From: Corynebacterium variabile
Lineage (GTDB): Bacteria; Actinomycetota; Actinomycetes; Mycobacteriales; Mycobacteriaceae
Reading direction: 5' to 3'
Assembly: GCF_006539825.1 (NCBI RefSeq)
Contig: NZ_BJNT01000009.1
Location: 1-64,000 of the forward strand
Length of the DNA stretch: 64,000 nt
Of the stretch, positions 1 through 10,279 are shown one piece after another. The notes beneath the pieces are model-generated. The model did no database searches. It was not told the DNA's origin and saw only the letters and a list, made by a program, of their open reading frames with translations. Position 1 is the first letter of the stretch; each line of letters opens with the position of its first letter. A program made the position numbers and the translations under genes.

Positions 1-625
1 GGATGTGGACGGCCGGGTGCACGGCGGTGAGCACCCGGTCGATGCGGGCACGGTCTGCCTGGCTGAGTGGGTCGGTGGCCTTGTCCTGGGCGTGTGCACT
101 GCCGGCGGCCAGGGCGGTGAACGCTGCTGCCCCGGTCTCGTGGGTGACGAGGATGTCCACCGGGCTGGGAGTAGTGCCGGCGGCGGTGATGGCGCGGTCG
201 ATCTGGGCGTCGGTGATGTGCTCGGTGGGAAACCAGTCCACGCCCTCGGTGCGCCACCGTCGATCGGTGGAGGTCGCCCCGCCGAGGAACAGCATGTCGA
301 CCCCAGCAACGGTGCTGCGCAGTCCGCGGGGCATGTGGGTGATCGACCGGGTCAGGGCGGTGGGTTCGGCGGTGTCGGGAGTGAGGAGGGTGAAGTCCTC
401 GTGGTTGCCGTCGATGATCCGGTAGTCCACGCCCGGGGCGCGTTCATCGAGGATGAGTTGCAGGAGTTCGAGGTCGGCGGGGTGGTGGAAGCCGAAGTCG
501 CCGGTCTGGATGATCGTCGCCGCACTGGCGGACACGGCGAGGTCGGTGGTGTGGATGAACGCGTCGATGTTGTCGTGGAGGTCGCCGATGAAGGCGATGC
601 GGTTCGGGTCCGGGGTGGTGCTCAT
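1..625 (-). CDS. Calcineurin-like metallophosphoesterase, C-terminus beyond the window edge
   Basis: This is the first 208 codons of a metallophosphoesterase; the gene runs off the left edge. The family hydrolyses phosphate mono- or diesters at a two-metal centre. The metal-binding blocks are visible in order: GDLHDN (residues 14-19), GDFG (42-45), GNHE (73-76) and a later TH pair in VDILVTHET near residue 153. The substrate cannot be told from sequence. The ATG at 623-625 starts exactly before the first conserved strand. Base composition is GC-rich like the chromosome, unlike the small genes that follow. It could be transposon cargo or resident chromosome, because the left end of the Tn7-like element was not located. 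Confidence 0.8.
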   Translation of the reverse strand, partial: MSTTPDPNRIAFIGDLHDNIDAFIHTTDLAVSASAATIIQTGDFGFHHPADLELLQLILDERAPGVDYRIIDGNHEDFTLLTPDTAEPTALTRSITHMPRGLRSTVAGVDMLFLGGATSTDRRWRTEGVDWFPTEHITDAQIDRAITAAGTTPSPVDILVTHETGAAAFTALAAGSAHAQDKATDPLSQADRARIDRVLTAVHPAVHI

Positions 626-801
626 GGGGGTGAGGGTAGGGGTCTGGGCAGGACGATGGCTAGTTCTTGTGGCCAGTTCTGCGCAGTTCAGGGCGTGTTT
701 ATGTCTGTATATGCAGGGAGGACGGTACGGCTCTTCGGAGCCCCGGTAAACTTGGTTACTCGAAAGGCAATGGCGTAATCGTTTCAGGAAGAGTGTACCT
801 G

Positions 802-2138: not shown

Positions 2139-3005
2139 TCAGTCCTCCTCCCACCTGGGGCGGCTCGTCCAGAACGGCGTCGTCACGGCGATGCTCGGAT
2201 CGGGCGCTACGCCACGCAGCCTGGCGGACGTGAGGTGCTCATAGTCCATCTTCAGGGAGCGCCAGAGTACGTTGCGGATCCGCCACGACTCGACAAGCTC
2301 CATATGGTGCACCGCAGCCTTGATGCTCTCGTCCAGGAACGCTCGACGCGACTCGGGGCGGGCAGGGGACAGCACCTGATTCAGGAAAGCATCATCGGTC
2401 AGCATCGCCGCGAGGGCGACTGTCTCCGGGTATCCCAGCATCACCGTACCTGCCTCACGGAGACGTAGCCGGCGAAGTCGGGGCTGCACCACGTGCTCAG
2501 GAAGACACTGACCGATGCTACGACAGTTCATCAGCACCACGCTGCCCAGCGACACACCGCGTCTCATCAGCACGCGGCGGAAGGCCCGCTCAGCAGTCAG
2601 GAACTCAGGCACTCTAGAGACATCCACCTGTACCCCGTCGCCGAGCCACCGGTGGTGCCGTAGACAGACGTCACCGGCGGTGGCAGAGAGCAGCCCGTCG
2701 GCCTCCCTCCCTGCGGAGCATTTGGCACACAGCCGGCGGTAGGAGATCGGGATGGTGACATCCGGCTCCGTCTCTGTGAAGGCGAAGGCGTGCAGGAGGC
2801 CCAGGTTCCGCCAGATCCGTTGACGCTCCTCACTGTCTCGCCGATACGGGAACACATACCCCTGCGAGCGCAGGGCAGATTCCACGTCCTCTACCGTGAG
2901 GTGGTTGGCTGCTGAGAGCCGCCGTGCGTACGAGATGAGTCCCTCACCTGGGAAACACCGCACCCTCACCGGAAGTGGAGGGGGACCACCCGAGTTGACG
3001 CTCAT
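2139..3005 (-). CDS. tniQ: TniQ/TnsD-family target-selection protein
   Basis: This 288-aa protein carries an N-terminal TniQ signature (RCFPGEGLISYARRLSAAN, about residues 16-34) and a zinc-binding CxxC-17-CxxH motif (C93, C96, C114, H117). TniQ proteins recruit the transposase to a target through TnsC. It is short compared with TnsD of Tn7 (about 500 aa), like the single TniQ of many Tn7/Tn5053-type elements. The ATG at 3005 overlaps the tnsC stop as ATGA, indicating translational coupling; an upstream in-frame extension overlaps tnsC and is rejected. It is the last gene of the operon. The target sequence is not known. Confidence 0.85.
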   Translation of the reverse strand: MSVNSGGPPPLPVRVRCFPGEGLISYARRLSAANHLTVEDVESALRSQGYVFPYRRDSEERQRIWRNLGLLHAFAFTETEPDVTIPISYRRLCAKCSAGREADGLLSATAGDVCLRHHRWLGDGVQVDVSRVPEFLTAERAFRRVLMRRGVSLGSVVLMNCRSIGQCLPEHVVQPRLRRLRLREAGTVMLGYPETVALAAMLTDDAFLNQVLSPARPESRRAFLDESIKAAVHHMELVESWRIRNVLWRSLKMDYEHLTSARLRGVAPDPSIAVTTPFWTSRPRWEED

Positions 3006-4051
3006 ACAGCCCCGCGCTCCTGCTTCGTATCCATTCTCGCACTCAACGGTGTGTCGGTCTGCCCCCGCACCGCCTCCTGATCGAGGAGCACCTCGTCGAG
3101 CCCTGCCCGGTCCACCAGTTCCGTTCCGGTGAAGATCGCGTTGATGGCGGCGTCCCCCAGTAAGTTGCATAGGCTACCGATGGACCCACCGGTCCTGTTC
3201 CACAGGTAGTCGGACATCTCCGGGGTCGTCAGTGAACCTACCGGGTGTGCCGCCAGCGGCAGCAGAGCCTCCATGCCAGCGACCAGCTCCACCCATGATT
3301 CGCGCGCTGCGGCACTGCCGTAGCTGTAGGTACGAATGTCGTAGACCTTGGTCCTCGCCCGGATCTGCCGGCCCATCTCACCGGCCAGTAGATCAGTGTC
3401 GAGCAGGTCGATTCCACAGAAGATCACCGCGGCGTCCAGGCGTTCGGTGAACGACTTCAGTGTGCTGGCAGCGTCCGCGCCGGCGGACTTGTTTGTCTTC
3501 AGGTTGTGCACCTCGTCGACGATGATCATGGAGGTCTTCAGAGTCTTCAGCACGGAGACAACGTGATCCATGACCGTCGGTGCGTCCCATCCGCGAGGGA
3601 CGGGGAGGCCGATCCACCGGGCGATAGCGACCATGAGCATCTTCGGTGTGCTACCAGGAGGAACGACCAGGTAGAGCACCGGGGCAACATCGGGGGCATC
3701 GGTGGGAAGCCCCAATTTCTGTCTCTCGATACGCTCATGACGCTTACCCATGAGCATGGCGATGGTGGACTTTCCGACGCCAGCGCGACCCGACAACGCA
3801 AGTGTCCGGCCTGCGGTGGAACGACGGGCGGCCAGGCGGGCACGGATGATGTGGACCTGGCGTTCGATCGAAGCCAGGTCCTTGGTCTCGATGACGACGT
3901 CAGCACCGATCCAGGCGAACCGTGACTTGTCGTAGGCCGCCTTGTCCTCCTCGGATAGTGCCGCGATCTTCTCGCGGCTCAGCTGTTCGGGCTCGACGTT
4001 GCGGCGAGCGACGAACTCCCGCCAGGCGGTGAGTGAATCTGGGACAGGCAT
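3002..4051 (-). CDS. tnsC: TnsC-like AAA+ ATPase of the transposon
   Basis: A 349-aa AAA+ ATPase. Walker A is GRAGVGKS (residues 88-95), Walker B is MIIVDE (175-180), and a sensor-like stretch (AAVIFCGID) follows. TnsC relays target choice by TniQ to the TnsAB transposase and assembles on target DNA with ATP. The start chosen, ATG at 4051, gives MPVPDSLTAW; the open frame continues upstream into tnsB in another reading frame and is not used. It lies 49 bp after tnsB and overlaps tniQ by ATGA. Its length fits TnsC/TniB-type ATPases. Confidence 0.9.
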   Translation of the reverse strand: MPVPDSLTAWREFVARRNVEPEQLSREKIAALSEEDKAAYDKSRFAWIGADVVIETKDLASIERQVHIIRARLAARRSTAGRTLALSGRAGVGKSTIAMLMGKRHERIERQKLGLPTDAPDVAPVLYLVVPPGSTPKMLMVAIARWIGLPVPRGWDAPTVMDHVVSVLKTLKTSMIIVDEVHNLKTNKSAGADAASTLKSFTERLDAAVIFCGIDLLDTDLLAGEMGRQIRARTKVYDIRTYSYGSAAARESWVELVAGMEALLPLAAHPVGSLTTPEMSDYLWNRTGGSIGSLCNLLGDAAINAIFTGTELVDRAGLDEVLLDQEAVRGQTDTPLSARMDTKQERGAV

Positions 4052-4100
4052 GCGGTGGCCTCGGCATTCGCGGGTGTGGTGGGTGGTGGGGAAGGAGGGC

Positions 4101-6125
4101 TCAGTCTTCGTCGACGCGGCGGGCAACGCGCCGTGGCGGCGAAGTAGGTGGAACTGGCTCGTCAGCGACTGCTCGTAGCGGCGCAGGATCATCCCCTGAA
4201 GGTCTGCTCGCCGCCACTTCCAGTTCCTCAGGGACGCTGCCCTTAGCGGTCCGCGAGCGCTTGGACGCGCTGCGTTCCTTGGCCGTGGCCGGCGTGGTGA
4301 GAATCCGGTTGATCTGCTCGGCGACATCCTTACCTGCCAACTGATTGTCCGTCCGGGTTAGTACCCGCTTCGCCGCGGTCAGAACGTCCTGGGAGAACGG
4401 TGCTGAGACTTGGGCGTTCATCACCCACGTCGCCTCGATCCAACGGCCTTTCACATGGTCTCGGACCCAGATCCGGTTCATCCGGTGCGGATCGTAGCGA
4501 ACCTCCCACTTACCCGATGCCGGTGCCGGAAGGCCCGAGGACATACCGCGGTACTCGGCGAGCTCGGGAGCGGTGTAGTGCAACCCGTCGAAGTTGATCC
4601 CGTAGGGCTGGATCGACCGGTAGGCCACTGGTAGCAGGGCGATGTAGTCGTCGCGCTCGAAGGTCACCGAAGCCTGCGGGGCTACCGATGCCAGCGCGGC
4701 GTACATCTCATTGGGGGTCAGCTTGCGCTTGGGCATCGCTGCGATCCGCAATCCCTCCTGGGTCCGGTTCTGGTAGACACCGACGACCCACATGTCCATG
4801 AGATTCTGGACCTCGGCCATCGTCCATATCGCCTGCTCGGCGGGGTCTTTGCCCCGCTGGACGACGTTGGGGCCGACGTAGCCGTCCAGGTGCTGGACGA
4901 AACCGGTACGCAGGCCACGGAAGAACGACTCGATGTGCGGTTTGTCGGTCGGGGTCCGGGGCGCGGCCAGCGTGAGGTTGATCTGCAGGCGCTCGCAGGC
5001 GGAAAGGAAGGTGGTGGACTTGAATGCCTTGCCGCGGTCCATGGTGATCGACTCCGGGACGATGACGGGCTTCGCCGCAACCTGGGCCGAAACCTCGGCG
5101 TCGTCGGGCAGCATCCCAGTGGGGAGGATCGAGCGTGAGTACGCCAGCGACTCAGGCCAACCGGGCTGCAGGGTCAGTGGGGTCATCGCCTTCGCGAGCA
5201 GGACCGCAGCATCGACGGCCTTTGTCGCCACCGGACGGGCAATGACGGCCAGGACGGTGCGGGTGGCGATGTCGACCGCAGCGGTGACGTCGATGCGGCC
5301 GGTGGACCCGTCGGGGTAGATGACCATGAGGTCCAGGGGAGTGGAGTCGATCTCCACGAGCTCGCCGGGGCGTTGCGGATGCCGGGTGCCCCAGGCGCGG
5401 TCGGGACGGTTGGACTTGGACCGGCGGGTGGTGGCAGAGCCGAAGGGGGAGCGGTCGCGCTCCAGTTTCCGCAGGATGCGGTACAGGGTGGCCCGGGACG
5501 GGACTTCCCAGCCGTTGTCCTGTGCAGCGTGGGTGACGCGCATGATTGCCCGGGACCGGGTGCCGGTGGACAGGTTCGTCTGACCGGCGATCTCTTCTTC
5601 CAGCAGGGCGACGACCCGGGGATCGGTGCGGCCGGGGACGGTGGAACTCTGGGTGCGTCGATGATCCACGAGCCCGGCAATGCCGAGTGATCGGAAGTTC
5701 TTGAGATGTCGGCGTAGCGTGCGTTTACCCATGGGGTGACCTTCGCTTGCCAGCTGTTCCAACTTGGCGTCGATCCGATGCTCCATGGGGATGTCGAGGG
5801 AAAACCGCGGGTCGGACGCGACGGGTTTGTCACCGACTACGGGAGGCACGCCGTTGATCAGCTCGTAGACATGTCGGTGGAGAAACTCGGTGCGTTCCCT
5901 GGCCTTCTCATCGAGAGTGTCGAGGACAGCGGTTGCGTCCAGGTCGGGGAGTCGGCCTGGGGTATCTGGAGTGTAGGAATCGTCAGTCAGCAGGTCTGCA
6001 ACAGTGATCTGCCGAGTGTTTCCGTTGGACAGGTCAGTGAGGGTGAGCAGTGCACCGTTCTGGTCTGTGACCTGCCAGGAAGTGCCGTCGAAGCTGATGT
6101 AGTCGAGAAGTCGGACGCTCTTCAT
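4101..6125 (-). CDS. tnsB: TnsB-like DDE transposase
   Basis: A 674-aa transposase of the retroviral-integrase (rve)/Mu family. The catalytic triad is readable as D260 (EIDST), D363 (TMDRGK) and E399 (KPHIES), with the 35-residue D-E spacing typical of this fold. Helix-turn-helix-like domains precede it (KRTLRRHLK around 134-142 and RATLYRILRKLE around 211-222), and a Mu-type beta-barrel C-terminal part follows. TnsB binds the repeats at the transposon ends and joins the 3' ends to target DNA. It overlaps tnsA by ATGA and is intact, so the element may still be active. Confidence 0.92.
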   Translation of the reverse strand: MKSVRLLDYISFDGTSWQVTDQNGALLTLTDLSNGNTRQITVADLLTDDSYTPDTPGRLPDLDATAVLDTLDEKARERTEFLHRHVYELINGVPPVVGDKPVASDPRFSLDIPMEHRIDAKLEQLASEGHPMGKRTLRRHLKNFRSLGIAGLVDHRRTQSSTVPGRTDPRVVALLEEEIAGQTNLSTGTRSRAIMRVTHAAQDNGWEVPSRATLYRILRKLERDRSPFGSATTRRSKSNRPDRAWGTRHPQRPGELVEIDSTPLDLMVIYPDGSTGRIDVTAAVDIATRTVLAVIARPVATKAVDAAVLLAKAMTPLTLQPGWPESLAYSRSILPTGMLPDDAEVSAQVAAKPVIVPESITMDRGKAFKSTTFLSACERLQINLTLAAPRTPTDKPHIESFFRGLRTGFVQHLDGYVGPNVVQRGKDPAEQAIWTMAEVQNLMDMWVVGVYQNRTQEGLRIAAMPKRKLTPNEMYAALASVAPQASVTFERDDYIALLPVAYRSIQPYGINFDGLHYTAPELAEYRGMSSGLPAPASGKWEVRYDPHRMNRIWVRDHVKGRWIEATWVMNAQVSAPFSQDVLTAAKRVLTRTDNQLAGKDVAEQINRILTTPATAKERSASKRSRTAKGSVPEELEVAASRPSGDDPAPLRAVADEPVPPTSPPRRVARRVDED

Positions 6126-6895
6126 GGTGACGCCTCCAGGCGACGTCGGATGGTGGACTCCATGGTCAGCGGCAGTAGCGGGTCAAAGTGAAGCTCGCCG
6201 TGGAACAGCAGATGCAGCACGTTGCCGAGGACGACGTCACGGGTCCGTTCCGAACGTCGTGACGCAGCGCGCACGCCTGAGCGTAGTGAGGTTTCCGTAT
6301 CGAATATCCCGAGCAGGATGCCGTGGGCCTCAGGTGTGGGCGCGTAGCGGTCCGTGCGGTAGCCGGCCAGCCATTCCAGCGTTTCCGCCTGTGGCGATTC
6401 CAGCCCGGTGAATACGGTGTACTTCCAGCCGAGTTCGTCGCAGAGTTGGCGGGTGAGCTCAAAGTGCGGGTCGTCGACCTTGTCCGGGCGCCGGACGTCG
6501 ACGAGGCCGACGTTGCCGCTGGCATAGCGGCAGAAGAAGTCCGGAACATGGGAGCGGAGAGACTTCCCTGCATCGGAGGTGGTTTTTGCAGGCCAGAGGA
6601 AAGCGAGAGGTTGGGCGCTGAGGGAGACGATGGAGGGGGTGTGGTCCGCGGCGAGGAGGAACTGTCGTTCTAGTAGGGACTCGAAGCGGACGTGACTACC
6701 TGTAGTCGTGGAGAACCAGTGGCCCTCGTAGTTCCGCTTGTGCGACCAGGCGTAGAAGCCGCGGATCGGGTCAGCTCGTTCGAACGGGACGTTGGACAGT
6801 GTGACGTCGGCGGCAGAGTTCTGGACGTCGCCGTCGAGGCTCACCAGGGCGCGCGGACGGTCGGTGCCGTTCCTCGGTAGCTGCCGTAGCGACAT
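6122..6895 (-). CDS. tnsA: TnsA-like endonuclease subunit
   Basis: A 257-aa protein resembling the TnsA N-terminal nuclease, which cuts the 5' strands of the transposon so that it leaves by cut-and-paste. The nuclease blocks are RFESLLER (E72), HVPDFF (D119) and LVDVRRPDK (D133/R135). In Tn7 TnsA the last block carries the catalytic Lys; here the aligned position is Arg (R135), with a Lys four residues on (K139). It is the first gene of the operon and starts 42 bp from the nearest end repeat, as in Tn7, so its promoter should lie within the right end. The whole gene is intact. Confidence 0.85.
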   Translation of the reverse strand: MSLRQLPRNGTDRPRALVSLDGDVQNSAADVTLSNVPFERADPIRGFYAWSHKRNYEGHWFSTTTGSHVRFESLLERQFLLAADHTPSIVSLSAQPLAFLWPAKTTSDAGKSLRSHVPDFFCRYASGNVGLVDVRRPDKVDDPHFELTRQLCDELGWKYTVFTGLESPQAETLEWLAGYRTDRYAPTPEAHGILLGIFDTETSLRSGVRAASRRSERTRDVVLGNVLHLLFHGELHFDPLLPLTMESTIRRRLEASP

Positions 6896-6936
6896 GTCCC
6901 TGACTCTCAGTGTCGGCGACTGGGGGTGCGTGCAAG

Positions 6937-7019
6937 TCTATGCCAGTTGTAGTGAGAGGGGAAGGCGTGATCCGTGTTCTGCCAGATTGACTGCGATTTC
7001 TGCCAACTAGACTGAGACA
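6937..7019. repeat. Right end of the Tn7-like element: three TnsB-site-like repeats
   Basis: Three related 16-mers run in the same orientation: TGCCAGTTGTAGTGAG (6941-6956), TGCCAGATTGACTGCG (6980-6995) and TGCCAACTAGACTGAG (7001-7016). Each is preceded by CTA or TTC. Spacing is 39 and 21 bp. They lie between tnsA and the flanking chromosome, where TnsB-binding sites sit in Tn7. The last ends ...GAGACA, giving a likely outer boundary at 7019. Confidence 0.7.
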
Positions 7020-7033
7020 GGTCAGGCGGGGCA

Positions 7034-7054
7034 GGGACCGGCGGGCCTGGTCCC
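7034..7054. terminator. Hairpin next to the transposon end, possible terminator
   Basis: GGGACC (7034-7039) pairs with GGTCCC (7049-7054) around a GC-rich 9-base loop. There is no clear T-run after it, so it may be a terminator of a gene now displaced by the transposon, or merely structured flanking DNA. Confidence 0.25.
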
Positions 7055-7397
7055 GTTAAAATGTCATAATGTATATTATCGGCTAATCGGAGGTAGGTGG
7101 CTGAGCAGGTGGCTCAACGGTGCCGCCGACGGTGTGCCGACGGCATGCCGGCGCTGTATTCCGCCGACATGTCCGTCCCGCTCATTCGTGACTGCGCCTG
7201 TCGTGCGGCCGGTGCGGACTGCTGCGCCATCCGGCTGCGTCTGGCGCCATCGGTCTGTGGTGATTCGTATGTCCCGGTCGTCTCAGTCGGATGGCGCCGA
7301 GCCGAACCCGATGGCTCTGTTCTTTCGTCGCCGGGCCGTCGGCGATTTCTGAGCCTCAATCTCCCGTTCTCCGCTCACCCTCCGGTAGTCCCTTTTT

Positions 7398-7496: not shown

Positions 7497-8048
7497 ATGC
7501 ACGTGACCTACACGACCGCGACCACCGTCAACGGATTCCTCGCCACCGAGGACGACTCACTCGACTGGCTCATGGCTGTCGGTGGTGAGACCCCGGATCT
7601 CGGCAATCTCATGGATACCACGTCAGTTGTCGTCATGGGCTCCCGCACCTACGAATGGTTGCTGCGCGACCAGGATCTCATCACGCAGCCTGAGGCGTGG
7701 ACCGTAACTTTCGGCACCCGACCTGTCATCGTCTTCACCTCACGTGACCTTCCGGCGCCCCAGGGCGCCGATGTCCGCTTCGCCGACGGTATCGTCGGCG
7801 ACAACGCCGACATGCTGCAGGACGCTGCGGGCGACGGTACCGTCTGGGTCATGGGTGGCGGCGACCTGGCCGGCCAGTTCCTCGACGCCGGACTTCTCGA
7901 CGAGATCACCCTCCATCTCAGCCCGGTTTTCCTCGCGAAGGGAAAGTCACTGTTCCCGCGCGACCTGGCCTCCGACCGGTTGACTCTGGTCCAGGCCCGG
8001 CAGATCGGTCAGTTCATCGAGGCGACCTGGCGTATCAGTCACCCCTGA
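7497..8048 (+). CDS. RibD C-terminal/dihydrofolate-reductase-fold protein
   Basis: A 183-aa protein with the DHFR-like fold of the RibD_C family. The markers are TTVNGFLA near the N-terminus, VVVMGSRTYEW in the middle and VWVMGGGDLAGQFLDAGLLDEI further on, which form the NADPH-binding strands. Members are NADPH-dependent reductases of often unknown substrate and are common as stand-alone genes in actinobacteria. The ATG at 7497 was chosen because homology begins at once (HVTYTTATTVNG). It ends 14 bp inside the convergent UvrA2-like pseudogene. It is the first chromosomal gene next to the transposon. Confidence 0.8.
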   Translation: MHVTYTTATTVNGFLATEDDSLDWLMAVGGETPDLGNLMDTTSVVVMGSRTYEWLLRDQDLITQPEAWTVTFGTRPVIVFTSRDLPAPQGADVRFADGIVGDNADMLQDAAGDGTVWVMGGGDLAGQFLDAGLLDEITLHLSPVFLAKGKSLFPRDLASDRLTLVQARQIGQFIEATWRISHP

Positions 8049-10279
8049 GCGCGTCCGCCAGACAACGGCCGGTGACCGTCCTGGCCCCGGAGTGCGCGAG
8101 CTCGGCGGGAGTGCCCTCGAAGACCACCTGTCCACCGGCGTCACCGGCGCCCGGACCGATGTCGATCACATGGTCGGCATGCGCCATGACCTGCTGACTA
8201 TGCTCGATGAGTACGAGTGTTCCGCCGGCGTCCACCAGCTCATCGAAGAGCTCCAGCAGTCGGCGGACATCGGCAGCGTGCAGTCCTGTCGTCGGCTCAT
8301 CGAGGATCAGGCGTAGTGGTTCATCGACGTTGATCGATCCCAGATGCCGGGCCAGGAGCAGCCGTTGACGTTCGCCACCAGACAGGCCGTCAAGTGTCCG
8401 ACCGACCGTCAGATACCCGAGCCCGACCCGGTCGACCCAGCGTAGCCGTGCCGTGTCCGCCGGTCCGAGCAGCCCGGCGGCATCAGCGGGATGCAGCGCC
8501 TCCACCTCGGCGATGGTGTATCCGCCTATGGTCACGGACAGAGCTTTCTCGTTGAAACCCGTCCCTGCACAGGCTTCGCAGGGTGTCCTCGTGTCCTCCA
8601 TGAAGGCCAGGTCGGTGGTGATCTCCCCGGTACCACGGCACTCCGGACAGCCGCCCTTCGCATTGCGGGAGAACCAGGACGACGACAGATCACCGGACGC
8701 CGCGAACAGTGACCGGAGACCGTCAGCGACGCCGGTCACCGTCAACAGCGAGGACCGGCGACCGCCGTGCAGCGGCCGTTGGCCGACCACGGTGAACTCG
8801 GGATGCTGTACGGAGAAATCAGCCGTGATCAGCGAGGACTTACCGCTTCCGGCGACTCCGGTGACCACGGTGAGGACGCCGCTCGGGACCGTTACGGGAG
8901 ATCCCGGAGGTTGTTGCTCCGGGCGTGCTCCACCGTGGCGGAACCGGTCGGTGTGCGGACCGACGACTTGAGCCCGGAGCTTCAGCATTGCTCACAGAGG
9001 CGGGTGTTCCGGTGAACGTGATCCTGCCACCGGACTCCCCTCCCCCCGGCCCCATGCCGATCACATGGTCGGCGGCGGCGATGACCGCCGGATTGTGGTC
9101 GACGACGAGGACGGTGTTCTTCCGGTCCCGCAGGCCGGTGAGCAGCGTGATCAGTCGCTGAACGTCACTGGGGTGCAGCCCGGCGGCCGGCTCGTCGAAG
9201 ACATAGGTCACCTCGGTCAGTGGGCTCCCCAGGTGGCGGACCATCTTCACCCGCTGTGGCTCACCGCCGGACAAGGTCGGCGACGACCGGTCGAGGTTGA
9301 GGTAACCCAGCCCGACCTCGACCAGGGCGTCCACCCGGCGGGAGATGTCCGTGAGCAGAGGGGCGGCACTCTCCCCCAGCGACTCTGTCGCTTCAACCAC
9401 TAGTTCGCACAGGTCAGAGACGGACACTGCGGCCCAGTCGGCGATGGAACGGCCATTGATGAGACTGTTCCGTGCCGCTGTGTTCAGCCGCGCGCCGGCG
9501 CAGTCCGGGCACGTCGAGTGACTTGCCACGGCATCGAGGCCGGTACGTTCTGCGGTGGTGAGCCGGGACGGCGTCCTACGCAGGTAGGAATCCTGCAGGC
9601 GGGGAATGATCCCGTCGAAGCGACCGTGGTCCGGGTATCCGGGCAACGGATCCTCCAGCGGGAGGTCGCGGGCGTGCAACAGCACATCGCGGATCTCGTC
9701 CGGCAGCTGCGACCAGGGTACGGACGGGTCGCAGAGACCGAAGGTGACCAGGCGTTTCCACCGGTAGGTCCCGGGTGCGAAAGTCGGGAACCGCACGGCA
9801 CCGTCATTCAGGGACAGGTCGGAGGTCGATCAGCGCGTCCTCGTCGATGACGGACACCGTCCCCAGCCCCTCACAGGTCAGGCACATACCTGCCGGATCA
9901 TTCGGCGAGTACGCCGGAGAGAATCCCGCCGACGGCACAGCGAACCGGGAGAAGAGCATCCGCAGCTGCGTCGAGAGATCAACGGCCGTGGCGACCGTCG
10001 AACGGGCTTGCCGGTGAACCGTCTCTGGTCGACCACGGTCGTGAAAGTGAGTCCGTCGATCCGGTCGACGTCCGCCGGCGGGTACTGGGCCAGACGGGTA
10101 CGGACGAACGACGGGTATCCGGCCGCCGTCGCCCGCTGCGCCTCCGCTGCGATCGTGTCGAAGACCAGGGAAGACTTCCCCGACCCGGACAGCCCGGTGA
10201 CCACGGTCAGCGCATGGGACGGGATCTCCACGTCGATGTCACGCAGGTTGTGCGTGCGGGCGCCGGTGACGGTGATCAT
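8035..10279 (-). pseudogene. UvrA2-like excinuclease A paralogue, broken by frameshifts
   Basis: Reading across three minus-strand frames rebuilds a two-ATPase UvrA-like protein of about 748 residues, starting MITVTGARTHNLRDIDVEIP at 10279. Seen are Walker A GLSGSGKSS, the zinc-finger pair CLTC, signature LSGGEPQR, a second Walker A GVAGSGKSS, CxxC pairs (CPEC, CEAC) and a second signature LSGGERQR. The frame changes near 10005-10011, 9818-9828, 8970-8990 and 8891-8905, each with sensible protein on both sides. UvrA2/DrrC-type proteins lack the UvrB-binding domain and are linked to drug or damage tolerance. Neighbouring genes are intact, which favours real decay, but a local assembly error is not excluded. 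Confidence 0.8.

Follow-up and report, generated by a model that had tools for sequence, protein, structure and literature searches.

How does a Tn7-like transposon with a single, short TniQ choose where to insert? The question is raised by a stretch of the Corynebacterium variabile genome (hereafter the window: the first 64 kb of contig C9, in a genome of 3.19 Mb and 68 contigs), for which a preliminary description had reported intact genes for TnsA, TnsB, TnsC, and one short TniQ, coupled by ATGA overlaps. Our analysis indicates that the window very probably holds the tnsA-side part of a Tn7-like cut-and-paste transposon that has dif as its attachment site. Host XerC and XerD are tyrosine recombinases that act on dif. 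The operon runs up to an element end at position 7019, dif sits 39 bp outside the terminal TGT, and the same layout was observed in all chromosomal members found of the clade to which the element belongs; complete ends with a 5-bp duplication were observed in two relatives. The features concerned are as follows.

2139-3005, minus strand: tniQ, 288 amino acids, the sole candidate target selector in the operon (from its position, weak profile matches, and conserved Cys and His residues)
3002-4051, minus strand: tnsC, AAA+ ATPase of 349 amino acids (TniB, E 5e-17; ShCAST TnsC in the PDB, E 3e-11)
4101-6125, minus strand: tnsB, DDE transposase of 674 amino acids (Mu-transpos_C, E 1e-12; TnsB chains in the PDB)
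6122-6895, minus strand: tnsA, endonuclease subunit of 257 amino acids (NF033179, E 4e-50; PF08722, E 5e-6)
6941-6954, 6980-6993, and 7001-7014, minus strand: three TnsB-like end repeats preceding the TGT terminus at 7019
7012-7019, minus strand: tnsA-side (right) terminus, 5'-TGTCTCAG, a TGT end as in the Tn7 family
7020-7058, no strand: spacer of 39 bp between dif and the element, its sequence not conserved among nine occupied sites
7059-7086, minus strand: dif, the 28-bp XerC/XerD chromosome-dimer resolution site (TTAGCCGATAATATACATTATGACATTT) and proposed attachment site, identical to Frankia alni dif at 20 of 28 positions

A Tn7-like operon ends beside dif

The coordinates and families of the four genes agree with the preliminary description. 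The 4-base ATGA overlaps join tnsA to tnsB and tnsC to tniQ (the start of tnsC was set at the ATG yielding MPVPDSL), and three Tn7-like features are present in the form of a TnsB with a Mu-type C-terminal domain, an AAA+ TnsC, and a TnsA endonuclease. TnsA residues E72, E76, D119, and D133 are invariant in 12 of 12 aligned TnsA proteins, TnsC carries the Walker-like motifs GRAGVGKST and IIVDEVH, and TnsB residues D260, D363, and E399, which are read as the DDE triad, are invariant in all seven TnsB proteins aligned. TniQ is weak by profile: a longer reading frame matched the family at E 0.0035, under the Pfam cut-off, and the 288-amino-acid form matched no Pfam family at E 0.01. In an alignment of four TniQ proteins, two matched the TniQ family at 0.01 (best 2e-4), and residues C93, C96, C114, and H117, invariant in all four, look like a zinc site. 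The possibility, raised beforehand, that the genes belong to a non-Tn7 integrative system was not borne out, as they belong to the Tn7-like family.

Read from the chromosome into the element, CCGATAATATACATTATGACA stands a short way ahead of the terminus in both the window and the related genome G040, and lies in a region that we take to be an actinobacterial dif. Inside the terminus, the repeats at 7001-7014 and 6980-6993 are identical to CAGTCNANNTGGCA and are its only exact matches in the whole genome, and the repeat at 6941-6954 has two mismatches. The candidate target duplication consists of the first five bases of the spacer, which are GGTCA on the plus strand and TGACC when read in the direction of the element. 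Because the window begins at a contig edge, it contains the tnsA-side end of the element only.

From its sequence, the pattern at 7059-7086 can be assigned as dif, the site of XerCD, being a 28-bp near-palindrome that occurs once per chromosome and near the terminus. The dif of Frankia alni is CACGCCGATAATGCACATTATGTCAAGT (Kono et al. 2011, PMC3025954; statements on published work, here and below, refer to the portions of each paper that were available), and the nine occupied-site dif sequences match it at 18-24 of 28 positions. The dif core pattern is present as a single copy in the window genome and in each of 105 of the 121 genomes searched, with no occurrence in 16 of the 121, and dif was not duplicated in any of these genomes; a backwards control pattern was absent from all 121. 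The position of dif on the chromosome was judged from the contig starts of 14 large Corynebacterium contigs. In the seven that start with dnaA (Pfam, 7/7), dif is found opposite the origin, at a fractional position of 0.46-0.54 along the contig; the remaining seven, with dif at 0.01-0.83, start elsewhere and are uninformative on terminus position. The genes yceI and rbpA are no more than about 7 kb from dif in all 19 of the additional Corynebacterium loci that were retrieved.

Adjacency to dif is shared by one TnsB clade

In a first scan of 13 loci, dif was detected in six and always adjoined the element end. The pattern now extends to all nine chromosomal members that were identified in one TnsB clade; they come from Corynebacterium, Mycobacterium, and Enemella as well as genomes G327 and G1134. 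The gap, counted between the terminal TGT and the outer edge of the 28-bp dif, is 39 bp in the window, 39 bp in G040, 42 bp in G024, 35 bp in G029, 55 bp in Mycobacterium sp. UM_WGJ, 51 bp in Mycobacterium neglectum, 41 bp in Enemella dayhoffiae, 39 bp in G327, and 35 bp in G1134. The orientation of dif is the same in all nine, with the XerD-type arm facing the element (arm names follow PMC10132070). When the nine sites were aligned without gaps, conservation was confined to dif, and no column of the flanks (40 bases before, 45 after) agreed in more than six of the nine. Two members deserve separate mention: G1134, which came from a search that postdated the hypothesis, is likewise at dif, and M. 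neglectum was settled by locating dif and the element end on a second contig.

The clade is thinly distributed, with members in 4 of 242 Corynebacterium genomes; a fifth match, in G075, is distant (29% TnsB identity) and falls outside it. At a strict threshold, a search of 391 genomes of the family matched the window's own genome alone. A search of 391 genomes from the order of G327 gave two matches, G327 and G1134. The search patterns matched no viral contig; among phage records there were seven matches, the best with 43% identity over 75% of the query.

A TnsB tree of 43 rows was built by a quick method with the eight dif-adjacent rows then known. These rows, together with the Arthrobacter plasmid pJ349-116, form one branch (SH-aLRT 100), and a single change suffices to explain the dif label, a value that none of 500 label shuffles reached. 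L098 and L127 were too short for the tree, so the exceptional plasmid pHiyo8-1, considered below, is absent from this test. Of 36 loci scanned, five are clade members with dif and the other 31 have no dif in the available flanks, several of them being cut by contig ends such that the element ends may be missing. Duplicates were counted once (L061 and L062 are genomes G040 and G024; L037-L039 repeat the elements of L008-L010). Another four loci from outside the clade (L066 and L099-L101) gave no close dif match, and on pFRP1-1, which carries another element outside the clade, a dif-like site is far from the element. Within the clade, 10 of the 11 members with a placeable tnsA-side end adjoin dif or a dif-like site.

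As side observations, L099, L100, and L101 are on plasmids, with a MobF relaxase gene adjacent in two cases and an antitoxin-toxin pair nearby in one. A palindrome, TTCATC(A/T)GATGAATCA, occurs just after dif in Mycobacterium sp. UM_WGJ, M. neglectum, and G1134 (L064, L156, and L192), with a related sequence in G122 (L070); it is possibly a host accessory element of dif.

Complete elements and empty sites

Two relatives provide both ends of the element. In G029, a near-complete genome with a main contig of 2.72 Mb, the element spans 24,437 bp, ends in TGTCCGTTG and CAACGGACA, and is flanked on both sides by CATAC, a perfect 5-bp duplication; its cargo includes BrxA, BrxB, BrxC, PglX, and PglZ, a BREX set. 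On the Arthrobacter plasmid pJ349-116, an element of 4,826 bp with ACTGC duplications lies 36 bp from the plasmid's only dif-like site and contains tnsA, tnsB, tnsC, and an open tniQ frame, which is annotated only in part, as a hypothetical protein, with no other annotated gene. Both elements have TGT..ACA ends, repeated TnsB sites, and the 5-bp duplication. For UM_WGJ and G1134, the available stretches did not reveal the far end of the element.

Comparison with empty sites was clean for the G029 element. Its joined flanks align with an uninterrupted locus in G698, and in G019, compared by position, a homologue of the far-end flank directly follows dif; as the sequence beyond the far end directly follows dif in both genomes, the empty site is uninterrupted. 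This flank matched 164 of the 242 genomes because it holds conserved genes. In G003, one of three relatives that lack an intact element, a decayed element end and the start of tnsA were found beside dif (score 79, compared to at most 28 for 200 shuffles and at most 26 for 22 other loci).

For the element in the window, the far end was located on contig C19 of the same assembly, at position 2248 (G000:C19), where three inverted TnsB-like sites are present. A search for it that used the exact sequence of the duplicated flank gave 62 matches with up to two mismatches against 49 for the control, which is the level of chance, and the true far end was recognized because a flank match at C19:2241 overlapped a TnsB-site match. 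Beyond this end is a gene with 76-79% identity to one that, in the three relatives without an intact element, lies 1.7-4.6 kb downstream of dif. The comparison of occupied and empty sites called for in the preliminary description is thus partial for this element, with a mismatched duplication, and clean for its relative in G029.

How dif could be selected

In the model that we propose, TniQ would recognize dif, or XerC/XerD bound there, and load TnsC towards the XerD half of the site. TnsC would in turn recruit TnsAB with the paired ends, and TnsAB would insert the element at a distance of about 35-55 bp, its tnsA end closest to dif, in the manner of the CRISPR-associated relatives. In Tn7-like elements, a fixed distance separates the insertion from the site that the selector reads, typically about 50 bp for the CRISPR-associated ones (PMC8649781), and the 35-55 bp gap fits a TnsC-loaded complex nucleated at dif. 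As dif occurs only once, is shared by almost all circular chromosomes, and is not disrupted, it would represent a safe site that can be found again in new hosts.

We consider it close to an even bet that host XerC/XerD bound to dif serve as the target selector, with the short TniQ docking on the recombinase-dif complex. The other possibility, to which we assign a substantial chance somewhat short of even, is that TniQ alone reads the dif DNA, as TnsD does at the glmS site, and that XerC/XerD play no part. That dif is the only conserved sequence at the nine occupied sites, and that the TniQ/TnsD family includes direct binders, are both consistent with direct reading. However, TniQ is only 288 amino acids long, and small TniQ proteins are associated with a separate selector, those above about 400 amino acids with direct binding (Faure et al. 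2023, PMC10293859). Moreover, beyond the closest members, TniQ identity within the clade (31-38%) is lower than that of TnsB (44-58%), yet dif hardly changes. Since TniQ is short and no further selector gene was found in pJ349-116, the minimal relative, we slightly favor XerC/XerD-bound dif over direct reading. The preliminary description held that target choice must depend on TniQ or on TnsC alone, and this part of it is not established, as dif-bound XerC/XerD may take part. It had also seen no TnsE-like gene and no CRISPR-Cas in the window, which says little given that parts of the element are on other contigs; the absence of further selectors is better backed by the 4.8-kb plasmid element, in which nothing beyond tnsA, tnsB, tnsC, and tniQ was found.

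We also considered whether the shared position could arise without recognition of dif. A single old insertion beside dif, inherited by descent, would give a common position that does not reflect targeting, and the elements of the window, G040, and G024 are close enough (84-87% TnsB identity) to share one event. However, the clade is in just 4 of 242 Corynebacterium genomes, its members are scattered over several families with different flanking bases and gaps, and empty sites exist, making descent highly improbable. A general preference for the replication terminus, as in TnsE-type insertion, would reduce dif to a landmark and would agree with its position opposite dnaA in the seven chromosomes where position could be told. 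We regard this as even less probable, because nine of nine ends lie 35-55 bp from dif, on one side and in one orientation, which a regional preference over tens of kilobases would not produce; terminus insertions scattered over kilobases were absent among the nine occupied sites. Least probable of all is that XerCD recombination at dif integrated the element, with the tns genes as passengers. IMEX elements do use dif in this way, but G029 and pJ349-116 have TGT..ACA ends, TnsB repeats, 5-bp duplications, and an offset of 35-36 bp from dif, and dif is neither the junction nor duplicated, there being one per genome and no second copy at the far end. On these grounds we reject Xer-driven integration, a terminus-wide preference, and descent from a single insertion.

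Several observations weigh against dif as the attachment site, or against the details of the model. The element of pJ349-116 lies on the other, XerC-type side of its dif-like site, and on plasmid pHiyo8-1, 3.9 kb separate a decayed relative with a broken tnsB from the dif-like site. The gap between dif and the element varies by 20 bp, which exceeds the variation in Tn7. The window element does not cleanly pass the duplication test, since its flanks, TGACC and GGACA, match at three of five bases, a difference that would require either mutation or a combination of ends derived from two insertions. As for the assignment of dif to the terminus, the G+C skew sampled along G029 is for the most part positive ahead of dif and negative behind it, which lends weak support, and the local skew around dif in G019 gave no clear signal. 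Finally, an AlphaFold model of TniQ, made with four sequences, was poor (pLDDT 47.6) and was not used.

Comparison with known systems

The element shares with Tn7 and Tn7-like transposons the gene order tnsA-tnsB-tnsC-tniQ, TGT..ACA ends with arrays of TnsB sites, a 5-bp duplication, a defined spacing between attachment site and insertion, and defense cargo. It differs in its target, which is a 28-bp recombination site without a gene, whereas known targets are glmS, tRNA genes, parE, comM, guaC, yciA, ffs, and rsmJ (PMC11406308, PMC10293859), and in having a single short TniQ, with no TnsE seen in the minimal relative. The view that this cut-and-paste element with one short TniQ is not the classic glmS-targeting Tn7 holds up, in that its end is at dif beside yceI-, mgtE-, and uvrA-like genes (glmS was not searched for separately). 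In addition, no Cas gene is annotated in the complete 4.8-kb relative, although no dedicated CRISPR search was made and the window element is split over contigs.

Two precedents come closest, the "dif site hunters" of the IS1202 family (ISAjo2 group) and the "res site hunters" of the Tn5053/Tn402 type. IS1202-family elements likewise have a TnsB-like DDE transposase, TGT/ACA ends, and a 5-bp duplication (Harmer et al. 2023, PMC10132070), and they too are found in one orientation next to dif or plasmid pdif (PMC10132070). However, these are Acinetobacter insertion sequences of 1.5 kb that consist of the transposase only, without TnsA, TnsC, or TniQ, and lie 5 bp from the XerC arm (PMC10132070), whereas the element described here lies 35-55 bp from the XerD arm in Actinomycetota, has a full TnsABC-TniQ set with cargo, and does not belong to that family. 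Together with the Acinetobacter elements, our findings suggest that TnsB-type transposases have reached dif at least twice, on opposite sides. Tn5053/Tn402 elements have one TniQ and target the DNA site of a site-specific recombinase (Minakhina et al. 1999, cited in PMC11406308), but they lack TnsA, encode their own resolvase, and insert at the res sites of Tn3-family transposons (PMC11406308). Here TnsA is present, the target is a host Xer site, and the complete 4.8-kb relative has no recombinase gene, placing the element outside that group. Tn6022 pairs TniQ with TnsF, an inactivated tyrosine recombinase (PMC10293859), and this precedent makes XerC/XerD plausible as partners of TniQ; in Tn6022, however, TnsF is transposon-encoded and targets comM (PMC10293859), whereas no fifth protein was found in the minimal relative.

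A full-text literature search, in which subscription papers were mostly not covered, returned no report of a TnsABC-TniQ element at dif, a result that is not proof of absence, and the word "dif" does not occur in the available text of Faure et al. 2023 or Benler et al. 2021. The element probably falls in a mainly actinobacterial clade of Benler et al. 2021 (PMC8649781), of which, according to that study, no member had been characterized. With dif as its target, the element would represent a new kind of attachment site for the Tn7 superfamily, namely a very small and almost universal recombination site that occurs in single copy, in place of a conserved gene, an RNA gene, or a match to a guide RNA. 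If XerC/XerD are indeed the selector, then the chromosome-dimer resolution machinery would be a universal landing beacon for a Tn7-like transposon, and TnsABC-TniQ without a dedicated DNA reader could home in nearly every bacterium with a circular chromosome. Whether a short TniQ reads DNA, or a host recombinase on DNA, becomes testable with four genes and a 28-bp target, and an insertion system for a safe, unique site in Actinomycetota would be useful.

Cargo and neighboring genes

Beyond tniQ, the window contains the start of the cargo.

1-2138: start of the cargo within the element, of lower G+C, holding short open frames and, on the minus strand up to 625, a metallophosphoesterase gene truncated at the contig edge

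A copy of the metallophosphoesterase gene (window 1-691), with 88% identity, is located where contig C28 ends (G000:C28:34005-34690). Contigs C9 and C28 both stop inside this gene, and the shared repeat may therefore have broken the assembly. Near an end of C28 is a type III restriction-modification-like pair (L040 2930-7574, G000:C28), and the start of the same type III methyltransferase is present as cargo beside tniQ in G040 (end of L034), suggesting that C28 may hold part of the cargo of the window element. On C19, a cargo gene near the far end (L188 1224-2102) encodes a DUF4062-type protein that matches the PADLOC candidate defense family PDC-S60 (E 4e-21).

On the chromosomal side, the element adjoins a gene for a UvrA-like ABC ATPase (window 8035-10279, minus strand), which aligns to an intact 762-amino-acid homologue in G040 in three reading frames and looks to be broken by frameshifts or affected by sequence errors.

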